Source of the DNA: Lachnospiraceae bacterium
GTDB taxonomy: Bacteria; Bacillota; Clostridia; Lachnospirales; Lachnospiraceae
Assembly: GCA_017469275.1 (NCBI GenBank)
Contig: JAFUGT010000128.1
Span: 1-41,413, forward strand
Direction: 5' to 3'
Length of the DNA: 41,413 nt
Shown piece by piece: positions 2,598-28,437 of this stretch (the first letter of the stretch is position 1; each line of letters opens with the position of its first letter). Both the position numbers and the translations under genes were made by a program. The notes under the pieces were generated by a model that was given only the letters and a program-made list of their open reading frames with translations, did no database searches and was not told the origin of the DNA.

Positions 2598-2625
2598 TTG
2601 ACTTTTGAAAATAAAGTCATATACT
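2598..2625 (+). promoter_or_regulatory. gltB promoter
   Basis: TTGACT (2598-2603) and TATACT (2620-2625) are 16 bp apart. This matches the purF and carA promoters in spacing and -10 sequence, and P1 of the leader begins ten bases later, in the position expected for the transcript start. Confidence 0.82.
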
Positions 2626-2635
2626 ATATCTAGAT

Positions 2636-2705
2636 GTTCCAAGGGTGGAACGAATGAATAGATATATTAATTGAACATTGTATGTGTATGAAGCAAGGGT
2701 GTTTC
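2636..2705 (+). promoter_or_regulatory. ANTAR-type dual-hexaloop antiterminator of gltBD
   Basis: P1: stem GTTCC (2636-2640) and GGAAC (2647-2651) around loop AAGGGT. P2: stem GAAGC (2690-2694) and GTTTC (2701-2705) around the same loop AAGGGT. Both loops have A at position 1 and G at position 4, the recognition pattern of ANTAR RNA-binding regulators. P2 shares bases 2697-2705 with the 5' arm of the following terminator, so P2 and the terminator cannot form together. Protein binding to P1/P2 should therefore allow read-through into gltB. Confidence 0.85.
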
Positions 2706-2729
2706 GAGTTTTACTCGAAGCACCCTTTT
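2697..2729 (+). terminator. Leader terminator (attenuator) of gltBD
   Basis: A 12-bp stem pairs 2697-2708 with 2714-2725 around a five-base loop and is followed by TTTT. It lies between promoter and gene, so it is an attenuator. Its 5' arm overlaps P2. Confidence 0.9.
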
Positions 2730-2970
2730 GCGTGTTAGCAACGAGCCACGCGTCAGAAATAAATCATAGACACTGTAAGCTTGCTTACAAAGTGTTATAT
2801 GATTTATTTCTGGAATGTGGCGGTGCAAGATGTCCGGGGGACATCTGCTTTGCACGGACCGTAGCGGAGCGAAGACCTGCCACGACCGATGCCGAAAACA
2901 CAGAAATCTTTGATTTCGTTGTGTTTCTGCATGCAGAGCAGATGAAGCGAAGCGAAATCGAGGTGCGCAT
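2730..2970 (+). repeat. Structured leader element, copy 1 (gltB)
   Basis: This 240-nt stretch follows the attenuator and shares long near-identical segments with 14997-15232. In order it holds: GCGTG/CACGC around a GCAACGAGC-containing loop; a long hairpin (2754-2812) with 15-bp base, CTTG apex (2780-2783) and an AA bulge (2789-2790); hairpin GTGCAA-GATGTCC (2823-2855); hairpin AAACACA-GAAATC with TTT loop (2896-2926); and the palindrome CTGCATGCAG (2928-2937). It ends before the gltB ribosome site. It could be an untranslated RNA domain or an inserted palindromic repeat. I know of no named family for it. Confidence 0.7.
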
Positions 2971-2998
2971 AATACACTGGTATGCAAGGAGGAAAAAT

Positions 2999-5900
2999 AT
3001 GAACAAGGAATTAGAGAAAATCAGACAAAACGGTTTATATGATCCGCAGTTTGAACACGACAACTGTGGTATCGGTGCAATTATTCAGATTGACGGTAAG
3101 AAGAGTCATCAGCTGGTTGCTGATGCTTTAAGTATTGTGGAAAATCTTGAGCACAGAGCGGGAAAAGATGCGGAAGGAAAGACCGGTGACGGAGTTGGTA
3201 TTCTTACACAAATACCGCACAAATTCTTTGTTCGTAAGATGGCTCAACAAGAGGTAAAACTTCCGGATGAAAGAAAATACGGTGTGGGAATGTTTTTCTT
3301 TCCTCAAAGTGATCTGGAAAACCGTCAGGCTAAGAAGATGTTTGAGATTATAGTTGCTAAAGAAGGTCTTAAGATTTTAGGATGGAGAAAAGTTGATACA
3401 AAGCCGGAAGTATTAGGGAGCAAGGCATTAGAATGTATGCCGGTCATTATGCAGGTGTTTATTGAAAGACCGGATGGTTTTGAGACTGACCTTGATTTTG
3501 ACAGAAAACTCTATGTTATCAGAAGGGAATTCGAGCAGAGTAATGTTAACACTTATGTTCCGTCTCTGTCATGTAGAACAATTGTGTATAAAGGAATGTT
3601 CCTGGTCGGACAGCTCCGTACATTTTTCCTTGATCTTATGGATAAGGATTATGAGTCTGCAATCGCTATGGTTCATTCAAGATTTTCAACCAATACCAAT
3701 CCAAGTTGGAACAGAGCCCATCCTAACCGCTTCATGGTGCATAATGGAGAGATTAATACCATAAAGGGTAATGCGGATAAAATGCTGGCAAGAGAAGAAA
3801 CGATGTCAACTAAGATGCTGTCGGCGGATGATATGACTAAGGTGCTGCCTGTAATTTCTTCAAGCGGTTCAGATTCGGCAATGTTAGATAACACTTTGGA
3901 ATTTCTGGTGATGAGTGGCATGGAACTTCCCCTTGCGGCTATGATAGCAATACCTGAACCATGGGCGCACAACGATACACTTACTCAGGAGGAAAGAGAT
4001 TTCTACCAGTATTATGCCACTATGATGGAGCCTTGGGACGGTCCGGCATCAATTCTTTTTTCTGATGGGGATATTATGGGCGCAATTCTTGACAGAAATG
4101 GTCTTAGACCGTCAAGATATTATGTGATGGATGATGGCAGACTTATACTTTCCTCAGAGGTGGGGGTTCTCCCGCTTCCCGAAAAACATATCGTGAAGAA
4201 AGAAAGACTTCACCCGGGCAAAATGCTTCTGGTAGATACAACGAAAAACAAGATATATTCCGATGAAGAAATCAAGGAAAGATATGCACACAAAGAGCCG
4301 TATGGCGAGTGGCTTGACAGCAATCTGCTTAAACTCAAGGATATCAAGATTCCCAATGCAAAAATTCCGTCTTATACAGACGAAGAGAGAACAAGACTTC
4401 AGAAAGCATTTGGTTATACATACGAGAATTATCATGAGGGTATTCTCAATATGGCATTAAATGGAACAGAACAAATAGGTGCTATGGGCGTTGATACCCC
4501 TATAGCTGCACTTTCAGATCAATATCAACCTTTATTTTACTACTTTAAACAGTTGTTTGCGCAGGTGACCAATCCGCCTATTGATGCAGAGCGGGAAAAA
4601 ATTGTAACTTCACGTACTGTCTATGTGGGAACAAACGGTAATCTGCTGGAGGAAAGACCTGAGAACTGCCATGTTTTGAAGATACACAATCCCATTCTTA
4701 CAGATCTTGATCTTCTAAAAATCGAAAACATTAAGGCAGAAGGCTTTAAGGTGGCAAAGGTATCTATACTACATTATAAGAGTACACCGATTAAGAGAGT
4801 GATCGATCATTTATTTGTAGAGGTGGATAAAGCATACAGAGAGGGAGCTAACATACTGATATTGTCTGATCGCGGTGTAGATGAAAATCATGTTGCATTA
4901 CCATCTTTACTTGCTGTGGCGGCAGTTCACAGACATTTGGTCGTCACTAAGAAATGTACAGCCATGTCGCTTATTCTTGAGTCGGGAGAACCAAGAGAAG
5001 TACATCATTTTGCAACGCTTCTTGGTTTCGGCGCTTCCGCAGTCAACCCTTATCTGGCTCATTCAACTATCAAAGAACTGGTGGATAGTGATCTTCTTGA
5101 TAAGGACTACTATGCTGCGGTTGATGACTATGACAGTGCGATACTTCACGGTATAGTAAAGATTGCTTCGAAAATGGGGATATCCACAATACAATCATAT
5201 CAGGGAAGCAAGATATTTGAAGCAATAGGAATATCGAAAGAAGTTGTGGATGAGTATTTTACAGGTACAGTGAGCCGGGTAGGAGGTATAACGCTTGAGG
5301 ATATCGCCAAGGCGGTAGATAAGCAGCACAGTCGTGCATTTGATCCGTTAGGTCTTTCTGCTGATCTGGAACTTACGGCAGTAGGACGTCATAAATCAAG
5401 AAGTCAGGGAGAGAACCACAGATATAATCCGCGTACAATACACATGCTTCAGTCGGCCACAAGAGAAGGCAATTATGATAAGTTCGTGGAATACACCAAA
5501 ATGGTGGATGCCGAGGAGACAGGATATTTAAGAAGTCTTATGGACTTTAATTATCCTGAGGCAGGTGTCCCGATTGATGAGGTTGAAAGTGAGGAGGAGA
5601 TTGTCAAACGTTTTAAGACAGGGGCTATGTCTTACGGTTCAATTTCTGAGGAGGCACATCAAACGCTGGCAATTGCAATGAATCATTTACATGGAAAGTC
5701 AAACAGTGGTGAGGGTGGAGAAAGTGAAGAACGAATCGCATCTGCCGGAACGAAGCATGACAGAAGTTCAGCTATTAAGCAGGTGGCAAGTGGAAGATTC
5801 GGAGTTACGAGCAAATACCTTGTAAGTGCAAAGGAAATACAGATTAAGATGGCTCAGGGTGCTAAGCCGGGGGAGGGAGGACATCTTCCGGGGAAGAAGG

Positions 5901-7549
5901 TATATCCATGGATTGCAAAGACGAGACATTCTACTCCGGGAGTGAGTCTTATATCACCGCCGCCACATCATGACATATACTCTATAGAGGATTTGGCACA
6001 GCTTATATACGATCTGAAAAATGCCAATAAGAATGCCCGCATTTCAGTGAAACTTGTATCAGAGGCAGGAGTGGGAACTGTTGCGGCAGGAGTGGCAAAG
6101 GCAGGGGCACAGGTAATACTTGTGTCAGGCTATGATGGAGGAACGGGGGCAGCACCATTAAGTTCTATTCATAATGCGGGACTCCCGTGGGAGTTGGGAC
6201 TCGCAGAAACACACCAGACATTACTTTCTAATGGGTTGAGAAATCAGGTGGTCATAGAAACTGATGGAAAATTAATGAGTGGAAGGGATGTGGCGATTGC
6301 TGCCCTGTTAGGTGCAGAGGAATATGGCTTTGCGACAGCACCCTTAGTTACTCTTGGCTGTGTGATGATGAGAGTTTGCCATCAGGATACATGTCCGATG
6401 GGTGTGGCCACACAAAATCCTGAACTTAGAAAGCGCTTTGCGGGCAAGCCGGAGTATGTGGAAAACTTCATGATTTTTATTGCAAGACAGCTTCGTGAAT
6501 ATATGGCCAAACTTGGTGTAAGAACAATAGATGAAATGGTTGGAAGAACTGATCTTTTGAAGGTCAAAGATTGTCTTGATGATGAGCAGGCGAAAATTAA
6601 CCTCAGTCAAATTTTGGTGGATTGTTCGGGTATAGACAGATCGTTGCAGACATTCCACTCTGAGATGGCTTATGATTTCAAGTTGGAAAATACAAAAGAT
6701 GAGAAGGTGTTATTAGTAAGTAAAGCCATCCGGGATTCTATTGAAAAGGGTAAAAAGAGCAGTATAGATATCGAATTGACTAACATAGATAGAACCTTTG
6801 GAACACTTCTTGGAGCAGAGATTACCAGAAATAATCCTGAGGGGCTTGCCGAGGATACGATAGAAGTCAACTGTACAGGCTCAGGAGGACAGAGCTTTGG
6901 AGCATTTATTCCCAAGGGACTTACCATGAAACTTGTTGGTGACAGTAACGATTATTTTGGCAAAGGTCTTTCCGGTGGAAAACTGATTGTGCATGCTCCA
7001 AGTGATGCGAAGTATGATCCGGAAGAGAATATAATTATAGGTAATGTTGCTTTATATGGTGCAACTTCAGGTGAGGCTTATATTGCCGGCATGGCAGGTG
7101 AGCGCTTCTGCATTCGTAACTCCGGTGTGACGGCTGTTGTGGAAGGTGTAGGAGAACATGGCTGCGAGTATATGACGGGAGGTCATGCTGTGATATTAGG
7201 ACCTACAGGCAAGAATTTTGCCGCGGGAATGAGTGGCGGCGTTGCCTATGTACTTGATGAGGAAAGCACACTTTATAAGAATCTGAACAAGCAGCTTGTG
7301 GTAATGGAAAAGGTGGAACTGAAAAATGATAAGGAGGAACTTAAGAGAATCATTGAAAATCATGTGAAGTATACGGGTTCTAAGAAAGGTCAGAAAATTC
7401 TTGATGACTTTGACGGATACATTGGTAAATTTAAGAAAATCATACCTACAGATTACAAGGAAATGCTTAGACTTACTGCAAGAAATGAGGAGCAGGGAAT
7501 GGATAGAGAGCAGGCACAGATTGAGGCATTTACAGAGTTAGTGGGATAG
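2999..7549 (+). CDS. gltB: Glutamate synthase large subunit
   Basis: The enzyme converts glutamine plus 2-oxoglutarate to two glutamates, working with GltD. The 1516-residue product has the full family layout: class II glutamine amidotransferase domain, central linker domain, FMN-binding synthase domain and C-terminal beta-helix. The catalytic cysteine is Cys23 in DNCGIGA, after a short propeptide that must be removed. The 3Fe-4S ligands lie in C-x5-C-x4-C (Cys1121, 1127, 1132) followed by PMG. The ATG at 2999 has an AAGGAGG site just upstream and places the propeptide at normal length. The frame stays open for 107 codons upstream, but that DNA is the structured leader. gltD follows 13 bp after the stop. 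Expression is predicted to depend on ANTAR antitermination. Confidence 0.97.
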   Translation: MNKELEKIRQNGLYDPQFEHDNCGIGAIIQIDGKKSHQLVADALSIVENLEHRAGKDAEGKTGDGVGILTQIPHKFFVRKMAQQEVKLPDERKYGVGMFFFPQSDLENRQAKKMFEIIVAKEGLKILGWRKVDTKPEVLGSKALECMPVIMQVFIERPDGFETDLDFDRKLYVIRREFEQSNVNTYVPSLSCRTIVYKGMFLVGQLRTFFLDLMDKDYESAIAMVHSRFSTNTNPSWNRAHPNRFMVHNGEINTIKGNADKMLAREETMSTKMLSADDMTKVLPVISSSGSDSAMLDNTLEFLVMSGMELPLAAMIAIPEPWAHNDTLTQEERDFYQYYATMMEPWDGPASILFSDGDIMGAILDRNGLRPSRYYVMDDGRLILSSEVGVLPLPEKHIVKKERLHPGKMLLVDTTKNKIYSDEEIKERYAHKEPYGEWLDSNLLKLKDIKIPNAKIPSYTDEERTRLQKAFGYTYENYHEGILNMALNGTEQIGAMGVDTPIAALSDQYQPLFYYFKQLFAQVTNPPIDAEREKIVTSRTVYVGTNGNLLEERPENCHVLKIHNPILTDLDLLKIENIKAEGFKVAKVSILHYKSTPIKRVIDHLFVEVDKAYREGANILILSDRGVDENHVALPSLLAVAAVHRHLVVTKKCTAMSLILESGEPREVHHFATLLGFGASAVNPYLAHSTIKELVDSDLLDKDYYAAVDDYDSAILHGIVKIASKMGISTIQSYQGSKIFEAIGISKEVVDEYFTGTVSRVGGITLEDIAKAVDKQHSRAFDPLGLSADLELTAVGRHKSRSQGENHRYNPRTIHMLQSATREGNYDKFVEYTKMVDAEETGYLRSLMDFNYPEAGVPIDEVESEEEIVKRFKTGAMSYGSISEEAHQTLAIAMNHLHGKSNSGEGGESEERIASAGTKHDRSSAIKQVASGRFGVTSKYLVSAKEIQIKMAQGAKPGEGGHLPGKKVYPWIAKTRHSTPGVSLISPPPHHDIYSIEDLAQLIYDLKNANKNARISVKLVSEAGVGTVAAGVAKAGAQVILVSGYDGGTGAAPLSSIHNAGLPWELGLAETHQTLLSNGLRNQVVIETDGKLMSGRDVAIAALLGAEEYGFATAPLVTLGCVMMRVCHQDTCPMGVATQNPELRKRFAGKPEYVENFMIFIARQLREYMAKLGVRTIDEMVGRTDLLKVKDCLDDEQAKINLSQILVDCSGIDRSLQTFHSEMAYDFKLENTKDEKVLLVSKAIRDSIEKGKKSSIDIELTNIDRTFGTLLGAEITRNNPEGLAEDTIEVNCTGSGGQSFGAFIPKGLTMKLVGDSNDYFGKGLSGGKLIVHAPSDAKYDPEENIIIGNVALYGATSGEAYIAGMAGERFCIRNSGVTAVVEGVGEHGCEYMTGGHAVILGPTGKNFAAGMSGGVAYVLDEESTLYKNLNKQLVVMEKVELKNDKEELKRIIENHVKYTGSKKGQKILDDFDGYIGKFKKIIPTDYKEMLRLTARNEEQGMDREQAQIEAFTELVG

Positions 7550-7562
7550 GAGGAATATGACA

Positions 7563-9125
7563 ATGGGAAAGAATACAGGATTCATGGAATATGAGAGGAA
7601 GAATGGTCCGGTGGTTGCCGAGAAGGATAGGGTAAAGAATTTTGAAGAGTTTCATGGTCAGCTTGCAAAGCATGAACAGTGTATGCAGGCTGCAAGATGT
7701 ATGGATTGTGGAGTACCATTTTGTCAGGCGGGTGTAATGATTGCAGGAATGGCTTCAGGCTGTCCGCTTAATAATCTGGTACCGGAGATTAATGATCTTG
7801 TATATAGAGGTAATTTTAGTGAAGCCTATAAGAGGCTTTCGATTACCCATTGTTTTCCCGAGTTTACATCAAGGGTGTGTCCCGCACTTTGTGAGGCGGC
7901 GTGTACCTGTGGGCTGCATCAGGAGCCTGTATCGACGAAGGAAAATGAAAGAGCGGTTATAGAGTACGCCTTTTCCCATGATCTTGTTAAGGAAGAGGTT
8001 CCTAAAGTGAGAACCGGCAAGAAAATAGCAGTGGTTGGTAGTGGCCCGTCAGGACTTGCGGCAGCGCAGCTTCTTAACCGAAGAGGACATGAGGTTACGG
8101 TCTATGAGAGAAACGACCGCGTGGGTGGACTGCTCAGATATGGAATTCCGAATATGAAGCTTGATAAGAAAGTAATTGACAGGAGAATTGCTTTGATGGA
8201 ACAAGCCGGAATTAGATTTTTAACCGGAGTTAATATTGGCAAGGATATAAGTGCTAAAGAATTAGAGAAAGAATATGACAGTGTTATACTTGCGTGTGGT
8301 GCTTCTAATCCGAGAGATATAAAGGCACCGGGAAGGGAAGCGAAGGGAATCAGATTCGCAGTGGATTTCTTGTCGGAAGTTACAAAAACACTACTTGATA
8401 GTGATTTTGAAAAAATGAGCATTGCATCGCCTGTGCTTGCACGTGGCGATATTATGCGAAAAAAACATGGAGACGATAGTCGACATGAGAAGATACCCTA
8501 CAAACTATGTGAGGGTAAAGATGTTATTGTTATCGGAGGCGGTGATACAGGTAACGACTGTGTGGGAACAAGCATCCGTCTTGGTGCAAAATCTGTAACA
8601 CAACTTGAAATGATGCCTGAGGCACCGAAAAGCCGTCTTGATTCTAACCCGTGGCCGGAGTGGCCGAAGGTTTTGAAGACCGATTATGGTCAGGAGGAGG
8701 CTATATGGAAATACGGACATGATCCACGTATATATCAGACGACGGTCAAAGAGTTCATTAAAGATGGAAAAGGTAATCTCAAAAGTGTTGTTATCATTTC
8801 TTTAAAGCCTGAAAAAGATAAGAAGACGGGAAGAATGAATATGGTTCCTGTTGATGGCACGGAAAAAGAGATTCCTGCACAGCTTGTACTTATTGCAGCA
8901 GGTTTCCTCGGAAGTGAGAGCTATGTTACGGAAAGTTTTGGAGTGGAGGTTGACGGACGTACCAATGTTAAGACCGATGTCGGGAAATTCGCAACCAATA
9001 AGAAGGGTGTATATGCTGTTGGCGATATGCACCGGGGACAGTCACTTGTGGTATGGGCTATTTCGGAGGGAAGAGCCTGCGCCAAGGAAGTGGATGCGGA
9101 TTTGATGGGTTATACGAATCTGTAG
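7563..9125 (+). CDS. gltD: Glutamate synthase small subunit
   Basis: This NADPH-oxidising partner feeds electrons through FAD and iron-sulfur clusters to GltB. The N-terminal cysteine-rich region holds the cluster motifs (CMDCGVPFCQ, then CP and CPALCEAACTCG). The FAD-binding GSGPSGLAAA loop follows near residue 160, and a second dinucleotide-binding site GGGDTGND near residue 325. The product is 520 residues, normal for the family. The ATG at 7563 (MGKNTGFMEY, the typical family start) is preferred over the ATG at 7557 because the AGGAGG site at 7548-7553 is only three bases from the latter. The site overlaps the gltB stop, so translation is probably coupled. A terminator follows. Confidence 0.96.
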   Translation: MGKNTGFMEYERKNGPVVAEKDRVKNFEEFHGQLAKHEQCMQAARCMDCGVPFCQAGVMIAGMASGCPLNNLVPEINDLVYRGNFSEAYKRLSITHCFPEFTSRVCPALCEAACTCGLHQEPVSTKENERAVIEYAFSHDLVKEEVPKVRTGKKIAVVGSGPSGLAAAQLLNRRGHEVTVYERNDRVGGLLRYGIPNMKLDKKVIDRRIALMEQAGIRFLTGVNIGKDISAKELEKEYDSVILACGASNPRDIKAPGREAKGIRFAVDFLSEVTKTLLDSDFEKMSIASPVLARGDIMRKKHGDDSRHEKIPYKLCEGKDVIVIGGGDTGNDCVGTSIRLGAKSVTQLEMMPEAPKSRLDSNPWPEWPKVLKTDYGQEEAIWKYGHDPRIYQTTVKEFIKDGKGNLKSVVIISLKPEKDKKTGRMNMVPVDGTEKEIPAQLVLIAAGFLGSESYVTESFGVEVDGRTNVKTDVGKFATNKKGVYAVGDMHRGQSLVVWAISEGRACAKEVDADLMGYTNL

Positions 9126-9130
9126 ATATA

Positions 9131-10496: not shown

Positions 10497-11045
10497 ATGC
10501 TGTATGATAAGGATATACGGGATGATCTGTGCGATTTTCTTGAAGAAAAACATGGGAAAATCCGTTTTTTTGAAGAATTAACAATGGGAAAATCCAGAGC
10601 TGATATTGTAATGGTGACCAGTGAAGGTTTATACGGAATTGAGATTAAAAGTGACGCTGACACGTATCAGAGATTAGAGCGTCAGGTCAAAGATTATGAC
10701 AGGTTTTACGATTATAACATAGTAGTTGTGGGAACATCTCATGCAGAACATATAGGTGAGCATGTGCCGGATTATTGGGGTATAATAACTGCGGAGCTGG
10801 TTGATGGCAAAGTTGATCTCTATGAATACAGACATCCTGCTTTATGTCCGAAAGCAAAGCTCATTAACCAGATGCATTTTCTTTGGAAGAGTGAAATGCG
10901 ACATATTCAGGATAAACTTAACTTGTATAAGTATTCTGATAAGAGCAGGGCATACATACGCAAATATCTTATGGATAAAGTGTCACATGATGAGCTTAAG
11001 ATATATTTGCTTGAGGAATTGTTTGAAAGGGAATATCATTTATAA
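10497..11045 (+). CDS. PD-(D/E)XK nuclease-like protein (sce7726-type)
   Basis: The 182-residue product contains the restriction-endonuclease fold signature. RADIV carries D36, and GIEIKSDADT carries E49 and K51, followed by RLERQVKDYDRFYDY and a hydrophobic VVVG strand. This D...ExK arrangement with the SDADT extension is characteristic of the sce7726-like branch. All catalytic residues are present, so nuclease activity is plausible. The ATG at 10497 is chosen because AAGGG lies about eight bases upstream; a GTG at 10389 gives a longer frame but overlaps the ATPase gene and adds an unconserved-looking extension. Immediate proximity to the ATPase suggests they work together, possibly as a defence or DNA-repair module (inference). 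Confidence 0.75.
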   Translation: MLYDKDIRDDLCDFLEEKHGKIRFFEELTMGKSRADIVMVTSEGLYGIEIKSDADTYQRLERQVKDYDRFYDYNIVVVGTSHAEHIGEHVPDYWGIITAELVDGKVDLYEYRHPALCPKAKLINQMHFLWKSEMRHIQDKLNLYKYSDKSRAYIRKYLMDKVSHDELKIYLLEELFEREYHL

Positions 11046-14892: not shown

Positions 14893-14968
14893 GTTCCAAG
14901 GGTGGAGCAGTTAACGGTAAGTAAGAATTTTAACATGAATAGAGAATTATAAGAAGCAAGGGTGTTTC
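14893..14968 (+). promoter_or_regulatory. ANTAR-type dual-hexaloop antiterminator of purF-pyrG
   Basis: P1: GTTCC (14893-14897) with GGAGC (14904-14908) around AAGGGT; one pair is G-T where the gltB leader has A-T. P2: GAAGC (14953-14957) with GTTTC (14964-14968) around AAGGGT. The linker is 44 nt. P2 overlaps the terminator's 5' arm from 14960 onward. Confidence 0.85.
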
Positions 14969-14996
14969 GAGGTCTGTACTCGAAGCACCCATTTTT
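14960..14996 (+). terminator. Leader terminator (attenuator) of purF-pyrG
   Basis: A 12-bp stem pairs 14960-14971 with 14979-14990 around a seven-base loop and is followed by ATTTTT. It is mutually exclusive with P2. Confidence 0.9.
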
Positions 14997-15232
14997 GCGT
15001 GTAAGCTACGAGCAATGCGCCACGATAAAAAATAGATGTGTCGCAAGCTTGCTTGCAAGACATATCTATTTTTTATCGTGGAATGTGGCGGTGCAAGATG
15101 TCCGGTGGACATCTGTTTTGCACAGACCGGAGCGTAGATTAACCACGACCGATGCCGGAAACACAGAAATCTTTGATTTCGTTGTGTTTCTGCATGCAGA
15201 GCTGATGAAGCGAAGCGGAATCGAGGTGGGCA
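14997..15232 (+). repeat. Structured leader element, copy 2 (purF)
   Basis: Second copy of the element at 2730-2970, in the same position after the attenuator. Its long hairpin (15020-15081) has a 23-bp stem unrelated in sequence to copy 1 but perfectly paired apart from one G-T, with the same CTTG apex (15048-15051) and AA bulge (15057-15058). The downstream half is nearly identical to copy 1: the GTGCAA-GATGTCC hairpin (15091-15123), the AAACACA-GAAATC hairpin, the CTGCATGCAG palindrome and the GATGAAGCGAAGCG segment. An open frame across it ends four bases into purF and is not considered coding. Confidence 0.7.
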
Positions 15233-16691: not shown

Positions 16692-18326
<1,635 letters not shown>

Positions 18327-19840: not shown

Positions 19841-19913
19841 GTTCCAAAGGCGGAGCTTATTGTGATCAAATAATAATTATTAATACTGTTGATTAATGAA
19901 GCAAGGGTGTTTC
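19841..19913 (+). promoter_or_regulatory. ANTAR-type dual-hexaloop antiterminator of carAB-glnA
   Basis: P1: GTTCC (19841-19845) with GGAGC (19852-19856) around AAAGGC. This loop differs from AAGGGT at positions 3 and 6 but keeps A1 and G4. P2: GAAGC (19898-19902) with GTTTC (19909-19913) around AAGGGT. The loop variation at non-recognition positions supports a functional ANTAR target. Confidence 0.85.
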
Positions 19914-19940
19914 GAGGTCCGTACTCGAGGCACCTTTTTT
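19905..19940 (+). terminator. Leader terminator (attenuator) of carAB
   Basis: An 11-bp stem pairs 19906-19916 with 19924-19934 around a seven-base loop, followed by six T residues. It shares bases with P2. Confidence 0.9.
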
Positions 19941-19984
19941 AGCCTTATAGGAAATTGCGATTTCCTATAAAGCTAAAAAGGTGC
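19930..19984 (+). promoter_or_regulatory. Long hairpin overlapping the carA attenuator 3' arm
   Basis: GCACC plus the T tract (19930-19940) pairs with the A run plus GGTGC (19975-19984); AGC pairs with GCT; and TATAGGAAAT pairs with ATTTCCTATA around a TGCG loop. The hairpin therefore uses the 3' arm and T tract of the terminator. It occupies the place held by the structured element in the gltB and purF leaders. Role unknown. Confidence 0.65.
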
Positions 19985-20016
19985 TTGCGAGATGCAGATG
20001 GATAAAGGAGGAACTT

Positions 20017-21105
20017 ATGGACAGAAAACTAATTTTGGAAGATGGAAGCGAGTACTTAGGGTACGGCTTCGGTGCAAGGCGCGATGCAGTGTGCGAAATT
20101 GTGTTCAACACTTCTATGGTCGGCTATCAGGAGATTGTATCCGATCCGTCCTACACCGATCAGGCAATAGTTATGTCATATCCTCTTATTGGTAATTATG
20201 GAATAACCGATGAGGATTTTGAAAGTAAACTGCTTAATCTTGGCGGACTGATCGTCAGGGAAATAAATGATTCACCTTCCAATTTTCGATTTACAAGAAC
20301 ATTATCAGAACTTTTGGAAGATGGAAATGTTCCGGGAATATATGGGGTTGACACCAGAAAACTGGTCAGAAGCATAAGAGATTTCGGTTCGAGAAAGGTT
20401 CTTATTACGAACGCAGACACGACGCTTGAAGAAGGCCTGCAAATTCTTAAGAATACTGAGCTTCCACATGATGCCGTTTCCAGATGCAGTTGCAAGAAGA
20501 GGTGGTATGCCCGAACTTCCAATCCGGTTTACAATGTAGTTGCGATTGATTGTGGAATGAAAATGAATATCGTAAGAGAGTTTAATCGTCATGGCTGCAA
20601 TGTGACAGTTGTTCCGTATGATACAGGAAGTGCGGAAATTCTTTCGATGAAGCCTGACGGTGTATTTATATCAAATGGTCCCGGTGATCCTGAAGATGTA
20701 GGAGTTGTGATAGATACATTAAGCAAATTACGCGGTAAGATACCTCTTTTCGGGATCTGTCTCGGACATCAGTTGATTGCGTTGTCTTATGGCGCAAAAA
20801 CGTATAAATTAAAATTTGGACACAGAGGCGGTAATCATCCTGTCAAAGATATTAGAACCGGAAAAGTTGAGATTACAAGTCAGAATCATAGTTATGCGGT
20901 AGACGAGAAGTCTCTTGAAGGTACAAGGCTTTCAGTATCACATATCAATCTTTTAGATAATACGGTGGAGGGACTTGTATGTGCTGACGATTATGTATTT
21001 TCCGTTCAGTATCATCCCGAAAGCGCACCGGGTCCTCAGGATTCCACATATCTCTTCGAGCGATTCGCTCATTACATGAATCAATTCAGAGCCAGGTTAC
21101 TATAA
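20017..21105 (+). CDS. carA: Carbamoyl-phosphate synthase small (glutaminase) subunit
   Basis: Hydrolyses glutamine and passes ammonia to CarB for carbamoyl phosphate, feeding pyrimidine and arginine synthesis. The 362-residue product has the N-terminal CPSase domain (LEDGSEYLGYGFG, FNTSMVGYQEIVSDPSY) and a class I glutaminase with nucleophile Cys248 in FGICLGHQ and the YHPE of the triad near the end. The ATG at 20017 follows AAAGGAGG; the open frame 12 codons upstream has no ribosome site. carB starts 86 bp after the stop, and a CTTG-loop hairpin fills part of that gap. Confidence 0.96.
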   Translation: MDRKLILEDGSEYLGYGFGARRDAVCEIVFNTSMVGYQEIVSDPSYTDQAIVMSYPLIGNYGITDEDFESKLLNLGGLIVREINDSPSNFRFTRTLSELLEDGNVPGIYGVDTRKLVRSIRDFGSRKVLITNADTTLEEGLQILKNTELPHDAVSRCSCKKRWYARTSNPVYNVVAIDCGMKMNIVREFNRHGCNVTVVPYDTGSAEILSMKPDGVFISNGPGDPEDVGVVIDTLSKLRGKIPLFGICLGHQLIALSYGAKTYKLKFGHRGGNHPVKDIRTGKVEITSQNHSYAVDEKSLEGTRLSVSHINLLDNTVEGLVCADDYVFSVQYHPESAPGPQDSTYLFERFAHYMNQFRARLL

Positions 21106-21191: not shown

Positions 21192-24122
21192 ATGCCGAAA
21201 AGAACAGATATTAATAAAATACTCGTTATAGGTTCAGGTCCGATAGTTATAGGGCAGGCAGCAGAGTTTGATTATGCCGGAACGCAGGCATGTCTTGCGC
21301 TCAAGGAAGAAGGATACGAGGTGGTACTTGCCAACTCTAATCCGGCGACGATAATGACTGATACTATGGTAGCTGATAAGGTATATATGGAACCGTTGAC
21401 ATTGGAATTTATGGCGAGAATATGCCGCTATGAAAGACCTGATGCAATTGTTCCGGGAATAGGCGGTCAGACCGGGCTTAATCTTGCCATGCAATTGAAT
21501 GACAAGGGTGTATTAAATGAATGTGAGATTGAGCTTTTAGGAACTAATGCTGCCAGTATTAAATGTGCGGAAGACCGGGAAGAATTTAAAGAATTATGCG
21601 AAAGAATCGGAGAACCGGTAGTTCCTTCCCGGATAACTTACAGTATCGAGGAAGGGTTAAATGCTGCTAAGGAGATTGGATATCCGGTTATACTCCGACC
21701 TGCATTTACCCTTGGTGGTACAGGCGGTGGTTTTGCCTATAACGAAAAAGAAATGCGTGAAATGATGGCTAATGCGCTGGCACTTTCCCCCGTTCATCAG
21801 GTGCTTGTTGAAAAGAGTATAAAGGGATATAAAGAGATTGAGTATGAGGTCATCCGTGATGCGAATGATACGGCAATAGTGGTTTGTAACATGGAAAATC
21901 TTGATCCTGTAGGAATTCACACCGGAGATTCTATTGTGGTAGCTCCAAGCCAGACCTTAACTAATAAAGAATATCATATGTTAAGGGATAGTGCTCTGAA
22001 AATAATACGTGCTCTGGGAGTTAAGGGAGGCTGTAATGTACAATTTGCCCTTGATCCACAGTCCTTTAACTACTATGTGATAGAGGTAAATCCGAGAGTA
22101 TCCCGTTCATCTGCATTGGCATCTAAGGCAAGCGGATATCCCATTGCGAGAGTGTCCGCAAAGATTGCGGTCGGAATGAATCTGGATGAAATTGAACTTG
22201 CCAATACACCTGCCTGCTTCGAACCGGCACTGGATTATGTTGTAACGAAGATGCCAAGATTTCCGTTTGATAAATTCACACTTGCTTCAAATGTGCTTTC
22301 TACCCAGATGAAAGCCACCGGAGAAGTTATGAGTGTGGGACGTACCATGGAGGAAAGTCTGTTAAAAGCCATACGTTCCCTGGAAGATGGAAAGAATCAT
22401 ATTCACCTTGAAAAATTTGACGTAAAGAGTTTGTCAGATAAACCGGAACCTGATAACAAACAGGAGGCAATCGAAAAACTGCTCACATATATCGAAGATG
22501 GAACGGATGACAGGATATATGCCATATCACAGCTTATATGGCTTAATGTTGACCTTCAAATAATATTTGACAGAACCAGGATTGACATGTTCTTCTTAGA
22601 TAAGATCAAGAATATTGTTGAGTTTGAGAAGAAGCTTGAAAATATTAGAGTTGTCCGTAATAATTCTGATGACCCAATAATAAAAAGTGAGATTGCTGAC
22701 ATTTTATCATATGAAACCCTGTATGAAGCGAAACGTATGGGCTTTTCTGATTCATATATAGCTGAACTTCTTGATGTTACAGAGGATGAAGTCTGGAAGA
22801 AAAGGAAAGAGCTTAATATCAGACCGGTATATAAGATGATAGATACATGTGCATCTGAGTTTGAAAGCTATGTTCCGTATTTTTATTCTACATACGAGGA
22901 TGAAAATGAGTCTATAGTTTCCGATAAAAAGAAAATTATAGTATTAGGTTCCGGACCGATAAGAATAGGGCAGGGTGTGGAGTTCGATTACTCAACTGTA
23001 CATGCGGTAAAAACCATACATGATATGGGTTATGAAGCTATAGTGATAAACAATAATCCCGAAACGGTATCAACGGATTACACGACGGCTGACAAACTGT
23101 ATTTTGAACCTCTTACAGTGGAAGATATTATGAATATCATTGATCTTGAAAAGCCTGTTGGCGTTATTGCATCCCTTGGCGGGCAGACAGCCGTAAATCT
23201 TGCCGAGCCGCTAACCAAACGTGGAGTGAAAATTATAGGTACGGACTGCGATGCAATATTTAAGGCAGAAGACAGGGATGCGTTTGAAAATGTTATCGTA
23301 TCTTTAGGTATTCCACATCCTATCGGTGAAGCAGTTACCGATATAGAAAGCGGAGTAAATGTAGCAAGTAAGATTGGTTATCCGGTTCTTGTCAGACCTT
23401 CGTTTGTTCTCGGTGGACGTGCAATGGAGATTGTTGCCAACGAAGAAATGTTAAGACATTATCTGAAAAATGCGGTTGAGGTGGATGTGGATAAGCCGGT
23501 GCTGGTTGATAAATATGTAGTTGGCAAAGAAGTTGAAGTGGATGCAATCTGTGATGGCAAAGAAGTATTTCTTCCGGGAATTATGGAGCTTGTGGAACGT
23601 ACCGGTGTACATTCCGGAGACAGTACAAGCGTATATCCACCATTTTCAATATCAGAAAAGGTGAAGGATACCATAAGAGAGTATACGACTAAGATAGGTC
23701 TGGGAATTGGAATTATAGGATTGTTCAATATTCAGTTCATCGTAGATAAAGAAGAGAATGTATATATAATCGAGGTCAACCCGAGAGCATCAAGGAGCGT
23801 ACCTTTTCTATCCAAGTCCACAGGTTTTTCTCTTGTAGATATTGCAACTAAGGTCATGCTTGGAAAAAGTTTGGAGGAACAGGGCATAACCGATCTTTAT
23901 CCCTTACCAAAACAATTCTGGTATGTCAAAGCTCCTGCTTTTTCTTTCGAGAAATTGAATGGTATGGATGCCTATCTTTCACCGGAGATGAAGTCCACAG
24001 GTGAGGCGATTGGTTACGACAGAAAATTAAAGCGTGCATTTTATAAGGCGCTTCAGGCTTCCGGAATTAAAATGAAGGATTACGGAACCGTAATGGTTAC
24101 TCTTGCTGACGAGGATAAATAA
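21192..24122 (+). CDS. carB: Carbamoyl-phosphate synthase large subunit, interrupted by in-frame TAA
   Basis: Makes carbamoyl phosphate from bicarbonate, two ATP and ammonia supplied by CarA. The 976 residues include both ATP-grasp halves: [20 protein letters not shown] with [12 protein letters not shown] in the first, and [20 protein letters not shown] with [11 protein letters not shown] in the second. The oligomerisation linker lies between them. The frame ends at a TAA (24120-24122), but the same frame continues for 111 residues with the family's C-terminal MGS-like allosteric domain (see 24123-24458). Full-length relatives have about 1070 residues. The catalytic machinery is intact, so a truncated enzyme may still work but would lose UMP/IMP/ornithine-type regulation. 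An AGGAGGAAAG ribosome site precedes the ATG. Confidence 0.93.
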
Positions 24123-24458
24123 GAGGCTTTGCCCCTTGTACGTCGTTTTTATCAGTTGGGATTTAATATTGAGGCAACTGTAGGAACCGCCAACTTCTTA
24201 AAGAGCAACGGAATAAGAACAAGGCTTCGTGGTAAACTTAGTGATGGCAGTGATGAAGTAATTAAATCTATACAAGCAGGCTATGTTAGTTATATAATCA
24301 ATACAAGAGCGATTCTATCGGGTGTACATTATGAGGACGGTGTTGCCATAAGACAATGCGCTGTTCGAAATGGTGTGACCATGTTCACATCCCTTGATAC
24401 GGTAAGAATCCTTCTGGATGTGCTTGAAGAGGTTATACCTGAGATATCCGTCATATAA
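24123..24458 (+). pseudogene. carB: Severed MGS-like regulatory domain of CarB
   Basis: The stretch continues carB in the same frame directly after the TAA. It reads EALPLVRRFYQLGFNIEAT and ends EEVIPEISVI, with the ATVGTANFLKSNG and SYIINTR segments of the methylglyoxal-synthase-like domain that binds allosteric effectors. All of it is conserved-looking, with no further stop, so the interruption is recent, bypassed, or a base-call error. A TTG at 24129 with a weak AGAGG two bases upstream could start a separate 109-residue protein, but the spacing is poor. Confidence 0.8.
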
Positions 24459-24499
24459 GACATATAAACATTAATTTGTGAAAAAGAAAGGAGTCAGAC

Positions 24500-25672
24500 A
24501 TGAACGAAACTTTAGATGAAATCATGGAATATATAGAACGCGAGGATGCCAAATTTATAAGGCTTGCATTCCGCGATGCATTGGGAGTGCAGAAGAACAT
24601 TTCCGTAATGCCCTCTGAAATCAAGAAAGCCTTAGAGGACGGAATCCCCATTAATCCAAATGATATTGCAGGCTTTGAGGGCTGCAAAGGAGCTAATCTT
24701 TATCTTAAGCCAGATCCGTCAACCCTTGCAGTGCTTCCATGGCGACCTGACAGCGGCAGAGTGGTGAGAATGTTCTGTGATGTCTGTACCTCGGATGGTA
24801 AAGCCTTTCCCGGTGATACCAGAAAAATCCTACGGGATGCAGTAAAAAAGGCAAAACAGGCGGGAATACAGTTCCGCTTCAGCTCAGAGGCAGAATTCTA
24901 TCTCTTCAAAAAAGACGATAATGGCGAGGTGACTAATATTCCATATGATGACGCAGGATATATGGATATCGCACCAAAGGACAGGGGAGAGAATATTCGA
25001 CGTGAGATTTGTCTTACAATAGAGAAAATGGGACTTATTCCGGAACGCTCTCACCATGAGAGAGGTCCGGGACAGAATGAGATTGACTTTCATTATGGAA
25101 AGCCCCTTAAAGCCGCAGACCAGATGACAACATTTAAAATGGTTGTCGGTACGGTTGCCGACAGGAACGGTCTGTTTGCCGATTTTTCTCCTGTGCCCCT
25201 TCAGGACAAGCCGGGTAACGGATACCATATCAACATTTATGCTGAGGATAATAATGGGAATGATGTGTGTAAATATGCAGCCGCCGGGATTCTTGAAAAG
25301 ATATCGGATATGACTCTTTTCCTTAATCCGTCGGATGGCTCTTATACAAGATTTGGTAATTCTAATGCGCCGGACAGAATTAACTGGTCTGCGCAAAATG
25401 AATCCGGATTATTGTATGTGTCGGAAAGTAAAGGAACCACAAGAGTTGAATTGCGTTCACCGGATGCGCTTAGTAATCCGTATCTTGCGTACGCATTACT
25501 TATACATGCAGGATTATATGGAATTGAGAATAAACTGATGCTTCCTAAGGAGATGGACCCGGAAGGAATATTGCTGCCAAAGTCCCGAATACAGGCATGC
25601 GAGATAGCAATGGACAGTGATTTTATCAAAGGAATTGTTCCTAAGGAAATTATTGAGAGTTATACATTGTAA
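24500..25672 (+). CDS. glnA: Short-form glutamine synthetase (type I-like)
   Basis: Makes glutamine from glutamate, ammonia and ATP. The 390-residue product follows the GSI plan: a small N-terminal beta-grasp (FIRLAFRDALGVQKNI), then the catalytic domain with SEAEFYLF, GPGQNEIDF, GNGYHINIY, NWSAQNESG and RVELRSPDALSNPYLAYALL. It is about 50-80 residues shorter than classical GSI, lacking much of the C-terminus that carries the adenylylation loop, so covalent control of that type is unlikely. AAAGGAG precedes the ATG. It starts 41 bp after the carB region with no terminator or leader of its own, so it probably belongs to the carAB transcript. The ANTAR regulator follows by 100 bp. Confidence 0.88.
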   Translation: MNETLDEIMEYIEREDAKFIRLAFRDALGVQKNISVMPSEIKKALEDGIPINPNDIAGFEGCKGANLYLKPDPSTLAVLPWRPDSGRVVRMFCDVCTSDGKAFPGDTRKILRDAVKKAKQAGIQFRFSSEAEFYLFKKDDNGEVTNIPYDDAGYMDIAPKDRGENIRREICLTIEKMGLIPERSHHERGPGQNEIDFHYGKPLKAADQMTTFKMVVGTVADRNGLFADFSPVPLQDKPGNGYHINIYAEDNNGNDVCKYAAAGILEKISDMTLFLNPSDGSYTRFGNSNAPDRINWSAQNESGLLYVSESKGTTRVELRSPDALSNPYLAYALLIHAGLYGIENKLMLPKEMDPEGILLPKSRIQACEIAMDSDFIKGIVPKEIIESYTL

Positions 25673-25772: not shown

Positions 25773-26363
25773 ATGGAAAGAAAAACAGAAAGACAATATT
25801 CTTTGTTGATTGTCTCTGCTTCTGAACAATTCAATACATTGGTTAAGCGTGCGATTCCGCAGTCGAGCTTTGATGTGATCGAGATTCGTAAGAGTATCTC
25901 TTTGGCACAGCGTGAACTTCTTTCGAGAAAATATGATATTATAGTGATTAATGCCCCATTGCCGGATGATCTGGGAGTCAATTATGCAATGGATGTGGGA
26001 AGTCGTTATTCTTCGGGAGTGATGCTTGTTACGCCCGGAGAGATATGTGATGATGTGACGGAACATGTAATTGATCTCGGTATTATTGCAGTTCCCAAAC
26101 CAATTAACAAGAGGACAATATCGTCTGTGATCAGGCATTTACTTGCAGATCAGGATAAAGTCAAAACTCTTGAAAGGAAGTTGTCACAGGCAGATGACAA
26201 GTTAGCTGAAATGCGTATTGTCAATAAGGCAAAGTGGCTTTTGATAGCTAACGAGGATATGTCAGAAGCAGATGCACACAGATATATAGGAAAACAGGCA
26301 ATGGATAAATGTGTTTCCAAGCGTATAATTGCAGAGGAGATAATAGATAAATGGGAGGATTGA
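25773..26363 (+). CDS. ANTAR-domain RNA-binding antiterminator with degenerate receiver
   Basis: The 196-residue product has an N-terminal receiver-like domain (8-125) and a C-terminal ANTAR domain (about 138-193) joined by a coiled-coil helix. ANTAR landmarks are MRIVNKAKWLLIANEDMSEA and DAHRYIGKQAMDKC. These domains bind two-hairpin RNAs with A1/G4 hexaloops and prevent termination. The receiver looks phosphorylation-incompetent: the phosphoacceptor position is Asn60 (IIVINAPLPD) and the N-terminal acidic pair is Ser15-Ala16, though Lys109 is kept. Control by a ligand or by protein contact, perhaps with the adjacent glutamine synthetase, is inferred. The ATG at 25773 has AGGTGA upstream; an earlier GTG (25701) has none. 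It is the obvious candidate reader for the four leaders in this window. Confidence 0.9.
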   Translation: MERKTERQYSLLIVSASEQFNTLVKRAIPQSSFDVIEIRKSISLAQRELLSRKYDIIVINAPLPDDLGVNYAMDVGSRYSSGVMLVTPGEICDDVTEHVIDLGIIAVPKPINKRTISSVIRHLLADQDKVKTLERKLSQADDKLAEMRIVNKAKWLLIANEDMSEADAHRYIGKQAMDKCVSKRIIAEEIIDKWED

Positions 26364-26392
26364 AATAGAGGAAATATTACCTCTATTCAATC
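26359..26392. terminator. Bidirectional hairpin between convergent genes
   Basis: A near-perfect inverted repeat (GGATTGA and ATAGAGG arms with one bulged A, eight-base loop) covers the stop codons of both convergent genes. The T tract is weak on the plus strand. Confidence 0.6.
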
Positions 26393-28137
26393 CCTTTCAA
26401 AGATTTTTTGTTCTGATACATCATATTATCCGCACGCTCGAACACATCTGAAACTTTGATATCATTATCAGGGTCATAGACTGAAATACCGGTGGCGATA
26501 ACGGGTTTATCACCGGCATCTTTGTTGGCAATAACTTCTTTGCGTAAGTTTTCAAAAAGTGCATCCCTATCGCTATAATCGCGGTCGGTAAGAACGGCAG
26601 CAAATTCATCACCGCCTATGCGGAATACAGGGCTGTGAGAAAATGTGTCAAATATTAATTGGCAGGACGATTGGATATATTCATCACCTGCTTTGTGACC
26701 TAAGGTGTCGTTAATATGTTTGAGATTATTAAGGTCACATACAACGATTGCGAAGGAAATGCAGTATTTATCCACATCAATATTTTTCTGGATGTTTATC
26801 TCTAATTCACGATAAGCATTTTTGTTCTTGGCACCGGTGAGTTCATCACGTCTTGCCATCTCATTGGCTGTGCGTAGAGCACGAATATGTTCTTCTTCTT
26901 TTCTGATCTCCTCGGTAACATTCTCGATACCCAGAATGAAATGACTATGGTCGCTTGAAAACATGGCAGAAAGCCTTGTGTATTGTAATTGATCTACAAT
27001 GAACATTCTGTAATCCATGCTGAACTGTTTCGAGTTATCAAGAGCGGATAAAAGGTAGTCTTTGGACAGTGCGGTAAGAACGCGCTCTTTATCTTCGGCA
27101 AATACATTTTGTTCAGAGTCTTTATGTATGTCAGCAAAGAAATCACAACCCTCGCCCTGTATTTCGAGATTGCCAAAGGTATTATTGGTTGCGAAGGTTG
27201 AGTAATTACCGCCCTCAATATCAACATAATAAATGATGTCATAATGTGATGCGAGAGTTTCGGCAATCGCATTATAGGTAATACTGTTTTTCTGACTCTC
27301 CATAAAGGCCTGCTCGGCGATGAATTCAGCATTGATATTCTCAATACAAACGATTATATGTTTCTTGTCGCTTGCCCATATCTGTGAATTACGGCAGTGC
27401 ATATCATGACCGTTGATGGTCAGTTTGTAAGTAGAGGTAAATACCTTTTGCTGCTCAAGATTTTTAAGCATGGTCTTCTTGCTGTGCAGCTCCAAAACTC
27501 TGTCTACATCTTCAGGTGCAACGGCACGAGGGACATTCTTTCTGGATTCCTTGAAGAAATCTTCACCTTCTGTAGGTATATTGAGACTTTTATATACATC
27601 AGTGGAAGAGAATTCAAAGTAGTGATTGGTTTCGGTATCTATGTAATATAAAGTGTCATAGTGTTGTGCAAGGCTTGTTGCGATCTGATTATATATCTCA
27701 CGTTCTTTTTCGAGTTTTTCGGCTTTGTTGCGTTTCCTGATCTCATCATCTACGTTGAGAACTCCAAGAATGAAGTAAGTATTATGTTCTGTTGCCTCTT
27801 TGATAACTCTCAGCCTGTGCCACACCGGTCTTCCATCTATCATGAGCCGGTATTCTATGCTTTTCATGGAACCGTCTTTCATATCCTTAAGAAGCTGCTC
27901 TTTTTGTATATCGGATTTGAAAATGTGTTTATCTTCTTCAAATACGACCTGTTCTGCATCACGAGCCATGTTTTCAAAGAAATTCTCTCCGTCCTGTTCT
28001 ATCTTAAGAGAGTGAAAATCGGAATTGATGGAATACCACTTATACTCGTTGGTTTCGGCATTGACATAGTAAACACTTGTATAGTCTATAAGTAATGCTT
28101 CTGCTATTTTATTAAATACTGAGTCATTGTTAATCAT
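26383..28137 (-). CDS. Diguanylate cyclase with three tandem PAS-like repeats
   Basis: The 584-residue soluble protein has a C-terminal GGDEF domain (about 430-584) with intact RIGGDEF and substrate-binding NDTLGHKAGDEY. It should make c-di-GMP. The N-terminal 430 residues are three copies of one roughly 140-residue sensor unit. Each begins A-x-x-LA-x-HYD-x-x-YYVD-x-E-like, continues with a NL-x-I-x-x-EG-x-DFF element and a VxxED segment, and ends in an ILG-I-ENV strand and coiled linker. The RxxD product-inhibition site is absent upstream of GGDEF. No membrane segment is visible, so the signal is cytoplasmic. GAGGG precedes the ATG. It converges on the ANTAR gene and diverges from glnN. Confidence 0.9.
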   Translation of the reverse strand: MINNDSVFNKIAEALLIDYTSVYYVNAETNEYKWYSINSDFHSLKIEQDGENFFENMARDAEQVVFEEDKHIFKSDIQKEQLLKDMKDGSMKSIEYRLMIDGRPVWHRLRVIKEATEHNTYFILGVLNVDDEIRKRNKAEKLEKEREIYNQIATSLAQHYDTLYYIDTETNHYFEFSSTDVYKSLNIPTEGEDFFKESRKNVPRAVAPEDVDRVLELHSKKTMLKNLEQQKVFTSTYKLTINGHDMHCRNSQIWASDKKHIIVCIENINAEFIAEQAFMESQKNSITYNAIAETLASHYDIIYYVDIEGGNYSTFATNNTFGNLEIQGEGCDFFADIHKDSEQNVFAEDKERVLTALSKDYLLSALDNSKQFSMDYRMFIVDQLQYTRLSAMFSSDHSHFILGIENVTEEIRKEEEHIRALRTANEMARRDELTGAKNKNAYRELEINIQKNIDVDKYCISFAIVVCDLNNLKHINDTLGHKAGDEYIQSSCQLIFDTFSHSPVFRIGGDEFAAVLTDRDYSDRDALFENLRKEVIANKDAGDKPVIATGISVYDPDNDIKVSDVFERADNMMYQNKKSLKGIE

Positions 28138-28341
28138 ATGAAATCCCTCAAAAATGCTATCAATAAAATATTGGCTGCCTGATTATGTAATATAATATCC
28201 GCAAACCCTTAAATGTGTGTCATATCTGACAATAAATCGAATATATTATAATACATATGCAGGTATTTATGCAAGTGTAATGATAATCTTCGTCATTAAA
28301 AATAAATGATAAAATTTATGGAATAATTTTATAAAAAAGAC

Positions 28342-28370
28342 TTGATTTTTGTTTTGGATTGGTTTATATT
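28342..28370 (+). promoter_or_regulatory. glnN promoter
   Basis: TTGATT (28342-28347) and TATATT (28365-28370) are 17 bp apart. The leader hairpins begin seven bases later. The rest of the 28138-28341 gap shows nothing I can name. Confidence 0.65.
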
Positions 28371-28376
28371 AACATC

Positions 28377-28415
28377 TGTTAAAGCGAATATGGTTTTTAA
28401 GAACAAGGGTGTTCT
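28377..28415 (+). promoter_or_regulatory. ANTAR-type antiterminator of glnN (P1 weaker)
   Basis: P2 is clear: AGAAC (28400-28404) with GTTCT (28411-28415) around AAGGGT, with different stem bases from the other three leaders. P1 is a weaker four-pair stem, TGTT (28377-28380) with AATA (28387-28390), around AAAGCG, which still has A1 and G4. The linker is only nine bases, against 38-44 in the others. P2 shares 28407-28415 with the terminator. Confidence 0.72.
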
Positions 28416-28437
28416 CGTCGGGAGAATACCCTTTCTT
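28407..28437 (+). terminator. Leader terminator (attenuator) of glnN
   Basis: A ten-pair stem (28407-28416 with 28422-28431, one G-T) around a five-base loop is followed by TTTCTT. It sits between the promoter and glnN and overlaps P2. Confidence 0.85.

Follow-up and report, generated by a model that had tools for sequence, protein, structure and literature searches.

Here, we analysed a 41,413-nucleotide stretch of DNA from a Lachnospiraceae bacterium (contig JAFUGT010000128.1 of assembly GCA_017469275.1; hereafter, the window), which is contig C146 of a genome of 2.80 Mb in 182 contigs that is 82.6% complete. The window carries the gene sets gltBD, purF-pyrG, carAB-glnA-nitR, and glnN, each preceded by a leader in which a hairpin with a six-nucleotide loop (hexaloop) and an intrinsic transcription terminator exclude each other. 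The gene nitR, named by analogy, encodes a protein with an ANTAR domain, and the neighbouring glnA encodes a glutamine-synthetase-like protein that has lost key catalytic residues, referred to as GlnA*. We consider it quite likely that these leaders act by transcription attenuation and together make up one ANTAR regulon, in which NitR would not be switched by phosphorylation and GlnA* would act as its sensor partner.

An earlier note on this DNA had described four leaders built alike, with two hexaloop hairpins (P1 and P2) and a terminator overlapping P2, and had counted eight hexaloops with A1 and G4. To locate such elements, we used a scanner that applies hexaloop criteria from the literature (a hairpin with an A..G.. 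loop, a stem of at least 4 bp, and an overlapping terminator hairpin followed by a T run), which was written after the four leaders had been read and was given no positions. Across both strands of the whole window it returned four hexaloop-plus-terminator sites, the leaders of gltB, purF, carA, and glnN. Sixty dinucleotide-preserving shuffles of the window yielded on average 0.017 sites (at most 1) at −18 kcal/mol or better, the strength of the four real leaders, and on average 1.4 sites (at most 4) at a loose terminator cut; a P1-bearing site occurred in none of them. All four leaders have the P2 loop AAGGGT, with A1 and G4, in a hairpin that is mutually exclusive with the terminator. The promoter-proximal P1 was found in the gltB, purF, and carA leaders, directly after a promoter of the form TTGAC(A/T)-16-TATACT, with P1-P2 linkers of 38, 44, and 41 nucleotides, respectively. 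The P1 proposed for glnN (28377-28390; 4 bp, including one G-U pair) was rejected, being absent from the scan output and not conserved in the nearest relative (locus L055; glnN protein 93% identical), where P2 is kept and the P1 position holds a broken stem with the loop AAAACA. Of the design in the earlier note, seven of the eight hexaloops and every P2 with its overlapping terminator therefore stand. The difference between GGAAC and GGAGC in the P1 stems, which the earlier note had listed as a stem variation with pairing kept, is a one-sided change from A-U to G-U and no compensatory one. A search against Rfam gave no family above its cut-off. The coordinates are collected in Table 1.

Table 1. 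Genes and leader elements of the window (positions in nucleotides of the whole stretch).
Feature	Position	Strand	Remarks
gltB promoter, sigma-70-type (TTGACT, 16 nt, TATACT)	2598..2625	+	read directly; other leaders laid out alike
gltB P1, GTTCC[AAGGGT]GGAAC	2636..2651	+	scan; same hairpin in congener leaders
gltB P2 (antiterminator hairpin), GAAGC[AAGGGT]GTTTC	2690..2705	+	scan
gltB intrinsic terminator, incompatible with P2	2697..2729	+	−23.3 kcal/mol
gltB, glutamate synthase large subunit	2999..7549	+	
gltD, glutamate synthase small subunit	7557..9125	+	
purF P1, GTTCC[AAGGGT]GGAGC	14893..14908	+	scan; kept in six congeners
purF P2, GAAGC[AAGGGT]GTTTC	14953..14968	+	scan
purF intrinsic terminator	14960..14996	+	−22.4 kcal/mol
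purF	15267-16691	+	
pyrG	16731-18326	+	
carA P1, GTTCC[AAAGGC]GGAGC	19841..19856	+	scan; kept in congeners
carA P2, GAAGC[AAGGGT]GTTTC	19898..19913	+	scan
carA intrinsic terminator	19905..19940	+	−20.7 kcal/mol
carA	20017-21105	+	
carB	21192-24122	+	C-terminal MGS domain at 24129-24458, beyond in-frame stop
glnA*, 390-aa glutamine-synthetase-like protein without catalytic residues, proposed NitR sensor partner	24500..25672	+	
nitR (named by analogy), encoding an ANTAR domain and a receiver-like domain that has no phospho-acceptor Asp	25773..26363	+	
glnN hexaloop hairpin (single), AGAAC[AAGGGT]GTTCT	28400..28415	+	scan; kept in L055
glnN intrinsic terminator	28407..28437	+	−18.5 kcal/mol
glnN, type III glutamine synthetase	28576..30690	+	

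Two further structures were seen in these leaders. A second element of about 190-210 nucleotides with a long hairpin lies at 2777-2965 and 15018-15230, once in the gltB leader and once in that of purF. The two copies are 86% identical, and no third was found in the genome; part of the element is present in the purF leader of the congener G170 and pieces occur elsewhere in the genus. It was set aside as a component of the switch, given that, for example, the purF leaders of L259 and L260 have no space for it ahead of the gene and that pieces recur elsewhere in the genus. By eye, a long palindrome at 19925-19990 pairs the 3' arm and U tract of the carA terminator with sequence just downstream, a short way ahead of the start codon.

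Beyond the window, the same genome was searched with a pattern allowing up to three mismatches to the gltB P2, which P2 hairpins as diverged as that of glnN would escape. One further leader was found on contig C160 (L094), upstream of a gene that NCBIfam names dapL, and the other 18 matches (17 outside the window and one inside) had no such terminator. The dapL leader carries two hexaloops, P1 GTTTC[AAAGGC]GAAAC and P2 GAAGC[AAGGAT]GTTTC, and its P1 stem shows a real compensatory change, GTTTC/GAAAC compared with GTTCC/GGAAC. Patterns were used because the covariance-model search that the earlier note had proposed succeeded only in part: the model (R1) recovered all four window leaders when run on the fetched loci and one of the four genome-wide, where 150 of 938 candidates were scored. 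Its other matches (L058, L059, and L060) were considered doubtful, with P2 stems of 3 bp. Those at L058 and L059 are leader-like repeats (GAGCAAAGGTGTTG), and the L058 repeat lies directly upstream of an open reading frame that, by reading of the sequence and not by family search, resembles an NlpC/P60-type cell-wall hydrolase.

Within the genus, dual leaders were confirmed in 7 of 26 genomes (the own genome included) and in 9 of 30 fetched loci, the remaining 19 genomes having been searched non-exhaustively. Of the 16 dual leaders (15 distinct), seven stand before purF and six before carA, each in a different genome; the remaining three precede gltB (in the window), dapL (elsewhere in the own genome), and gltD (in the congener L256, with no gltB found on that 19-kb stretch). 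Both stems are paired in every one of them, and since they vary little they offer little evidence of covariation; their linkers span 31-67 nucleotides. The carA linkers of several congeners (L255 at 10890-11020; L257, L258, L261, and L262) share, between the two hexaloop hairpins, a conserved stretch of about 40 nucleotides that may itself form hairpins and is absent from the window carA leader.

The earlier note had seen in these leaders a glutamine-wide switch over all glutamine-using and glutamine-making enzymes of the window, operated by the established dual hexaloop of EutV type. The gltB, purF-pyrG, and carA leaders with their two hexaloops, and leaders of asnB, purF, and pyrG in relatives, fit such a switch, which is nevertheless unlikely and already largely refuted by the gene set itself. 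Five class-I glutamine amidotransferase genes were found in the genome, with CarA and PyrG under leaders; no such leader was found within 1.5 kb upstream of the other three, the TrpG-like, GuaA, and HisH genes (one weak, mostly G-U match 1.3 kb upstream of the TrpG-like gene, without the P2 consensus, was counted as none), nor upstream of the full-length type-I glutamine synthetase (GSI) on contig C160, and among class-II enzymes the search covered PurF and GltB. Because the TrpG-like, GuaA, HisH, and full-length GSI genes have no leader, the predicted regulon is selective rather than glutamine-wide, and it includes dapL, which encodes a transaminase.

To follow the leaders across the family, we searched 150 genomes with a signature pattern, which matched in 96 of them and gave 179 matches compared with 31 for the reversed pattern (hand count). 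We used 141 of the rows listed, omitting nine that were already in the set or were the mirror strand of another match; about ten genomes with matches, including G084 and G114, lie outside the rows analysed. The terminator filter was passed by 112 of the 141, and 76 of these, in 54 genomes, have a P2 stem of at least 4 bp and are referred to as strict leaders. Among the matches listed, 64 of the 76 stand upstream of a nitrogen or amino-acid gene, namely glnN (16), ammonium transporter/PII (16), glnA (8), asnB (7), gltB (5), a glnQ-type transporter (4), argD, pyrG, and purF (2 each), and an AGCS carrier and dapL (1 each); three more precede a PPDK-like gene, named from its sequence since NCBIfam gave no name at the cut used, and nine precede nothing recognised. 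Such genes followed 1 of 16 weak-stem matches (stem of at most 2 bp) and 11 of 20 matches with 3-bp stems, a comparison for which the AsnB, AmtB, PII, GlnQ, DapL, ArgD, AGCS, and PPDK-like references were taken from the same matches and were likewise applied to the weak-stem control. Across the family, the putative switch is associated with nitrogen-assimilation genes of various kinds (ammonium transporter/PII, type-III glutamine synthetase (GSIII), glutamate synthase, and AsnB), a connection published as early as 2012 (PMC3369931). Searched order-wide, the pattern matched in 30 of 56 genomes, the own family included, and many of these matches look like chance. Two single cases were also noted: L047 (17965-18071, minus strand) has two full hexaloop-terminator modules in tandem, with loops 56 nucleotides apart and one terminator each, and the glnN terminator of G104 (L042, 16546-16592) has such symmetry that each of its two strands scores as a leader.

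An alignment of 31 leaders (30 distinct) shows P2 to be 96.7% paired, a percentage inflated because the seeds were picked by a scanner that demands pairing, with changes on both sides of the stem in 42 cells compared with 12.9 after shuffling; the competing terminator covaries too, and the closing C-G pair and A1, A2, and G4 of the loop are invariant. Among the matches listed, a strict leader is present in 54 of the 150 genomes, 53 of which carry an ANTAR gene, and the exception (G137) is 81% complete and has a contig that ends within glnA. Of the 131 genomes with an ANTAR gene, 53 have a strict leader, compared with 1 of the 19 without (Fisher p 0.002); the association weakens to p 0.04 if the one unlisted match in each of the ANTAR-less genomes G084 and G114 is strict. 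It could be argued that these are ordinary attenuators which respond to a different factor, with the ANTAR link being incidental, given that binding of NitR to the leaders is a prediction, that one hexaloop alone is unlike the classical dual motif, and that ANTAR-less genomes with a pattern match were covered in part. We regard this as very unlikely in view of the invariance of A1 and G4, the co-occurrence of leaders with ANTAR genes, and the presence of leaders before glnA-ANTAR operons themselves.

In relatives, the leaders examined mostly carry one hexaloop. A second one lies 0-14 nucleotides upstream in 2 of the 76 strict leaders (1.55 in shuffles) and 3-25 nucleotides upstream in 2 of 76 (2.45 in shuffles), no excess within 0-25 nucleotides, and 26-60 nucleotides upstream in 9 of 76 (3.7 in shuffles, at most 8). 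Promoter-like pairs scoring at least 8 precede the hairpin in 63 of the 76 (in mononucleotide shuffles, mean 27.6 and maximum 40 of 76). Of these 63 hairpins, 44 start 5-16 nucleotides past the −10 box, at about +1, so that no space is left for a P1. According to the EutV reports, linkers measure 5-12 nucleotides in eut, a 14-nucleotide linker strongly reduced induction (PMC3369931), and a 20-nucleotide linker extension abolished antitermination (PMC8934654); the dual-hexaloop criteria for actinobacteria allow 2-25 nucleotides (PMC8164766). The 2022 EutV structure paper redefines the minimal ANTAR target as one hexaloop, with P1 kept as a recruitment site, and its discussion asks to what extent single-hexaloop sites are used (PMC8934654). 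By these standards, two hexaloops are present in three of the four window leaders and in that of dapL, none of them with the short linker of the EutV subtype (38-44 nucleotides in the window). The established dual-hexaloop control invoked by the earlier note can therefore not simply be transferred: the long linkers, and the single hexaloop of glnN and of most relatives' leaders, also argue against the all-glutamine switch discussed above.

The candidate regulator is the only ANTAR protein of the window and lies beside glnA, as the earlier note had stated, and no second one was found in the 82.6%-complete genome. Its ANTAR domain matches Pfam PF03861 above the cut-off (E 4.7e-13), and the protein matches Rv1626 (1s8n) and AmiR. 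At the phospho-acceptor position of the receiver-like domain, Asn is found in 24 of 25 proteins compared, including the window protein and L255. NitR is probably not switched by phosphorylation. A scan of genome contigs with NitR gave only two loci. Among 22 nitR loci of the family, glnA adjoins nitR in 21 (the 22nd is a 5.4-kb contig), and at least one of gltBD, carAB, purF, pyrG, and glnN lies near nitR in 18. Together with the conservation of the purF and carA leaders in congeners, this supports the proposal of shared ANTAR-type leaders on the gltBD, purF-pyrG, carAB-glnA-nitR, and glnN sets. In other genera, a second type of ANTAR protein (181-190 amino acids) adjoins glnA (L117, L135, L147, L158, L177, L209, and L222), and by eye its receiver-like half also has no usual phospho-acceptor pattern.

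The glnA of the window, which had been counted among the glutamine-making enzymes, is, judged by its sequence, not a convincing one. GlnA* scores 259.7 bits against the NCBIfam equivalog TIGR00653, below the cut-off of 429.15, compared with 547.3 for the other GSI of the genome. In Salmonella numbering, it has N, N, E, and Y at the catalytic positions D50', E327, R339, and R344 and keeps E129, E131, E212, E220, H269, R321, R355, E357, and R359, so that the positions contacting metal and substrate are unaffected. Other ANTAR-linked GlnA proteins have lost E327 (E327K, in a clade of 401-405 amino acids) or the metal ligand E129 (L050-L053). When proteins were labelled by hand as lost if D50', E327, R339, or a metal ligand had changed (with E327D taken as intact, L255 and L259 included, and the truncated L157 omitted), the GlnA tree required at least three label changes, which may represent one gain and two losses. 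Nonsynonymous divergence (dN) of glnA* is 0.12-0.24, with saturated synonymous divergence (dS above 2), which indicates purifying selection and a maintained gene.

Whether GlnA* is the sensor of NitR is evenly balanced. In the main alternative, the ANTAR regulon exists as proposed and NitR is controlled by PII, by another protein, or by a free ligand, with glnA a drifting co-transcribed target since GSIII and the full-length GSI make glutamine. Both of these enzymes are encoded in the genome, PII/AmtB genes belong to the regulon in relatives, several ANTAR-linked GlnA proteins look intact, and the glnA-nitR linkage could by itself reflect an old operon. This explanation is tentative and on balance improbable, as glnA* is under strong purifying selection, stands beside nitR in nearly every locus, and in the window has lost residues in a manner that leaves the metal- and substrate-contact positions.

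In the mechanism that we favour, with GlnA* as the partner, a leader transcript without help from NitR would fold the terminator, and transcription would stop. Active NitR would bind the hexaloop hairpins through A1, G4, and the closing C-G pair and keep P2 folded, so that RNA polymerase would read through into gltBD, purF-pyrG, carAB-glnA*-nitR (as autoregulation), glnN, and, outside the window, dapL. The GlnA* fold, with substrate- and metal-contact positions kept and ammonium, flap, and ATP-phosphate positions lost, could bind a nitrogen signal such as glutamine or glutamate and hold or release NitR in the manner of AmiC-AmiR and NasS-NasT. Antitermination by NitR is, within this scheme, highly likely. 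Besides the inflated pairing and the possible matches in G084 and G114, several observations weigh against the scheme. Linkers of 31-67 nucleotides exceed the working range of EutV, the glnN leader has a single hexaloop, and a seventh congener carA leader (L259) has the P2 loop GAGGGT and has thus lost A1; the NitR of that congener has Asp at the acceptor position. The substrate and metal sites of GlnA are not spared throughout, given that L036 and L037, which belong to the same clade as the window protein, lack R355 and the metal ligand E357 as well, and six ANTAR-adjacent GlnA proteins look intact at D50', E327, and R339 (L048, L054, L177, L209, and L222, and L158 with E327D). Finally, glutamine-consuming and glutamine-making enzymes would be raised together, which gives the signal no obvious sign.

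As a separate observation on gene content, an in-frame stop interrupts carB right before its MGS domain (24120-24129), at a point where seven relatives read on; it may be a real lesion or an assembly error.

In Bacillus subtilis, feedback-inhibited glutamine synthetase acts with GlnR and TnrA as a nitrogen sensor. There, too, a glutamine synthetase serves as the sensor of a regulator, with the difference that the enzyme is active and the regulators bind DNA. AmiC-AmiR and NasS-NasT pair an ANTAR protein with a ligand-binding partner as proposed here, and the receiver of AmiR, like that of NitR, which has no phospho-acceptor Asp, is without the residues needed to accept phosphate (PMC3795266, PMC8934654); AmiC and NasS (a relative of nitrate-binding proteins) differ from the glutamine-synthetase fold of the putative partner. 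With EutV/EutW of Enterococcus faecalis, the leaders share the A1/G4 hexaloops, the P2 overlapping a terminator, and an ANTAR protein, and they differ (PMC3369931, PMC8934654) in linkers of 31-67 rather than 5-12 nucleotides, in single-hexaloop leaders in glnN and most relatives examined, in a receiver without phospho-acceptor, and in the neighbours of nitR (within the window, glnA and a GGDEF gene, and no histidine kinase).

ANTAR control of nitrogen genes, including those of glutamate and glutamine synthesis, is already known from earlier work, which also mentions a clostridial nitR antiterminator of ammonia assimilation. Ramesh et al. (2012) predicted ANTAR nitrogen regulons with glutamate/glutamine synthesis, PII, and ammonium-transporter genes (PMC3369931), the same kinds of genes as here, to which purF-pyrG, carAB, asnB, and dapL are added, some of them possibly in the supplementary tables of that paper. 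In solventogenic clostridia, an ANTAR antiterminator is likewise tied to ammonia assimilation genes through nitR-glnA (PMC4676874); here, glnA has lost catalytic residues and the regulon is wider. Among the literature matches listed, with subscription journals and supplements outside reach, we found no ANTAR leaders of purF, pyrG, or carA and no degenerate glutamine synthetase with an ANTAR protein. As far as the literature was searched, three points are new: the membership of purF-pyrG, carAB, asnB, and dapL, the layouts with long linkers or a single hexaloop, and the candidate sensor role of a degenerate glutamine synthetase. The combined claim that a catalytically dead glutamine synthetase has come to sense nitrogen for an ANTAR antiterminator, and that a family with a single 5'-end hexaloop and one genus with two hexaloops 31-67 nucleotides apart both contradict the short-linker recruitment model of EutV, is slightly more doubtful than probable.

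The family offers dozens of candidate natural single-hexaloop antiterminators before housekeeping nitrogen genes, as well as dual ones with linkers far beyond the tolerated range, and these candidates make the recruitment model directly testable. If GlnA* does gate NitR, a pathway enzyme would have been recruited as sensor for an RNA-binding regulator, which would account for nitrogen control at the entry points of purine, pyrimidine, and cell-wall precursor synthesis in these bacteria.

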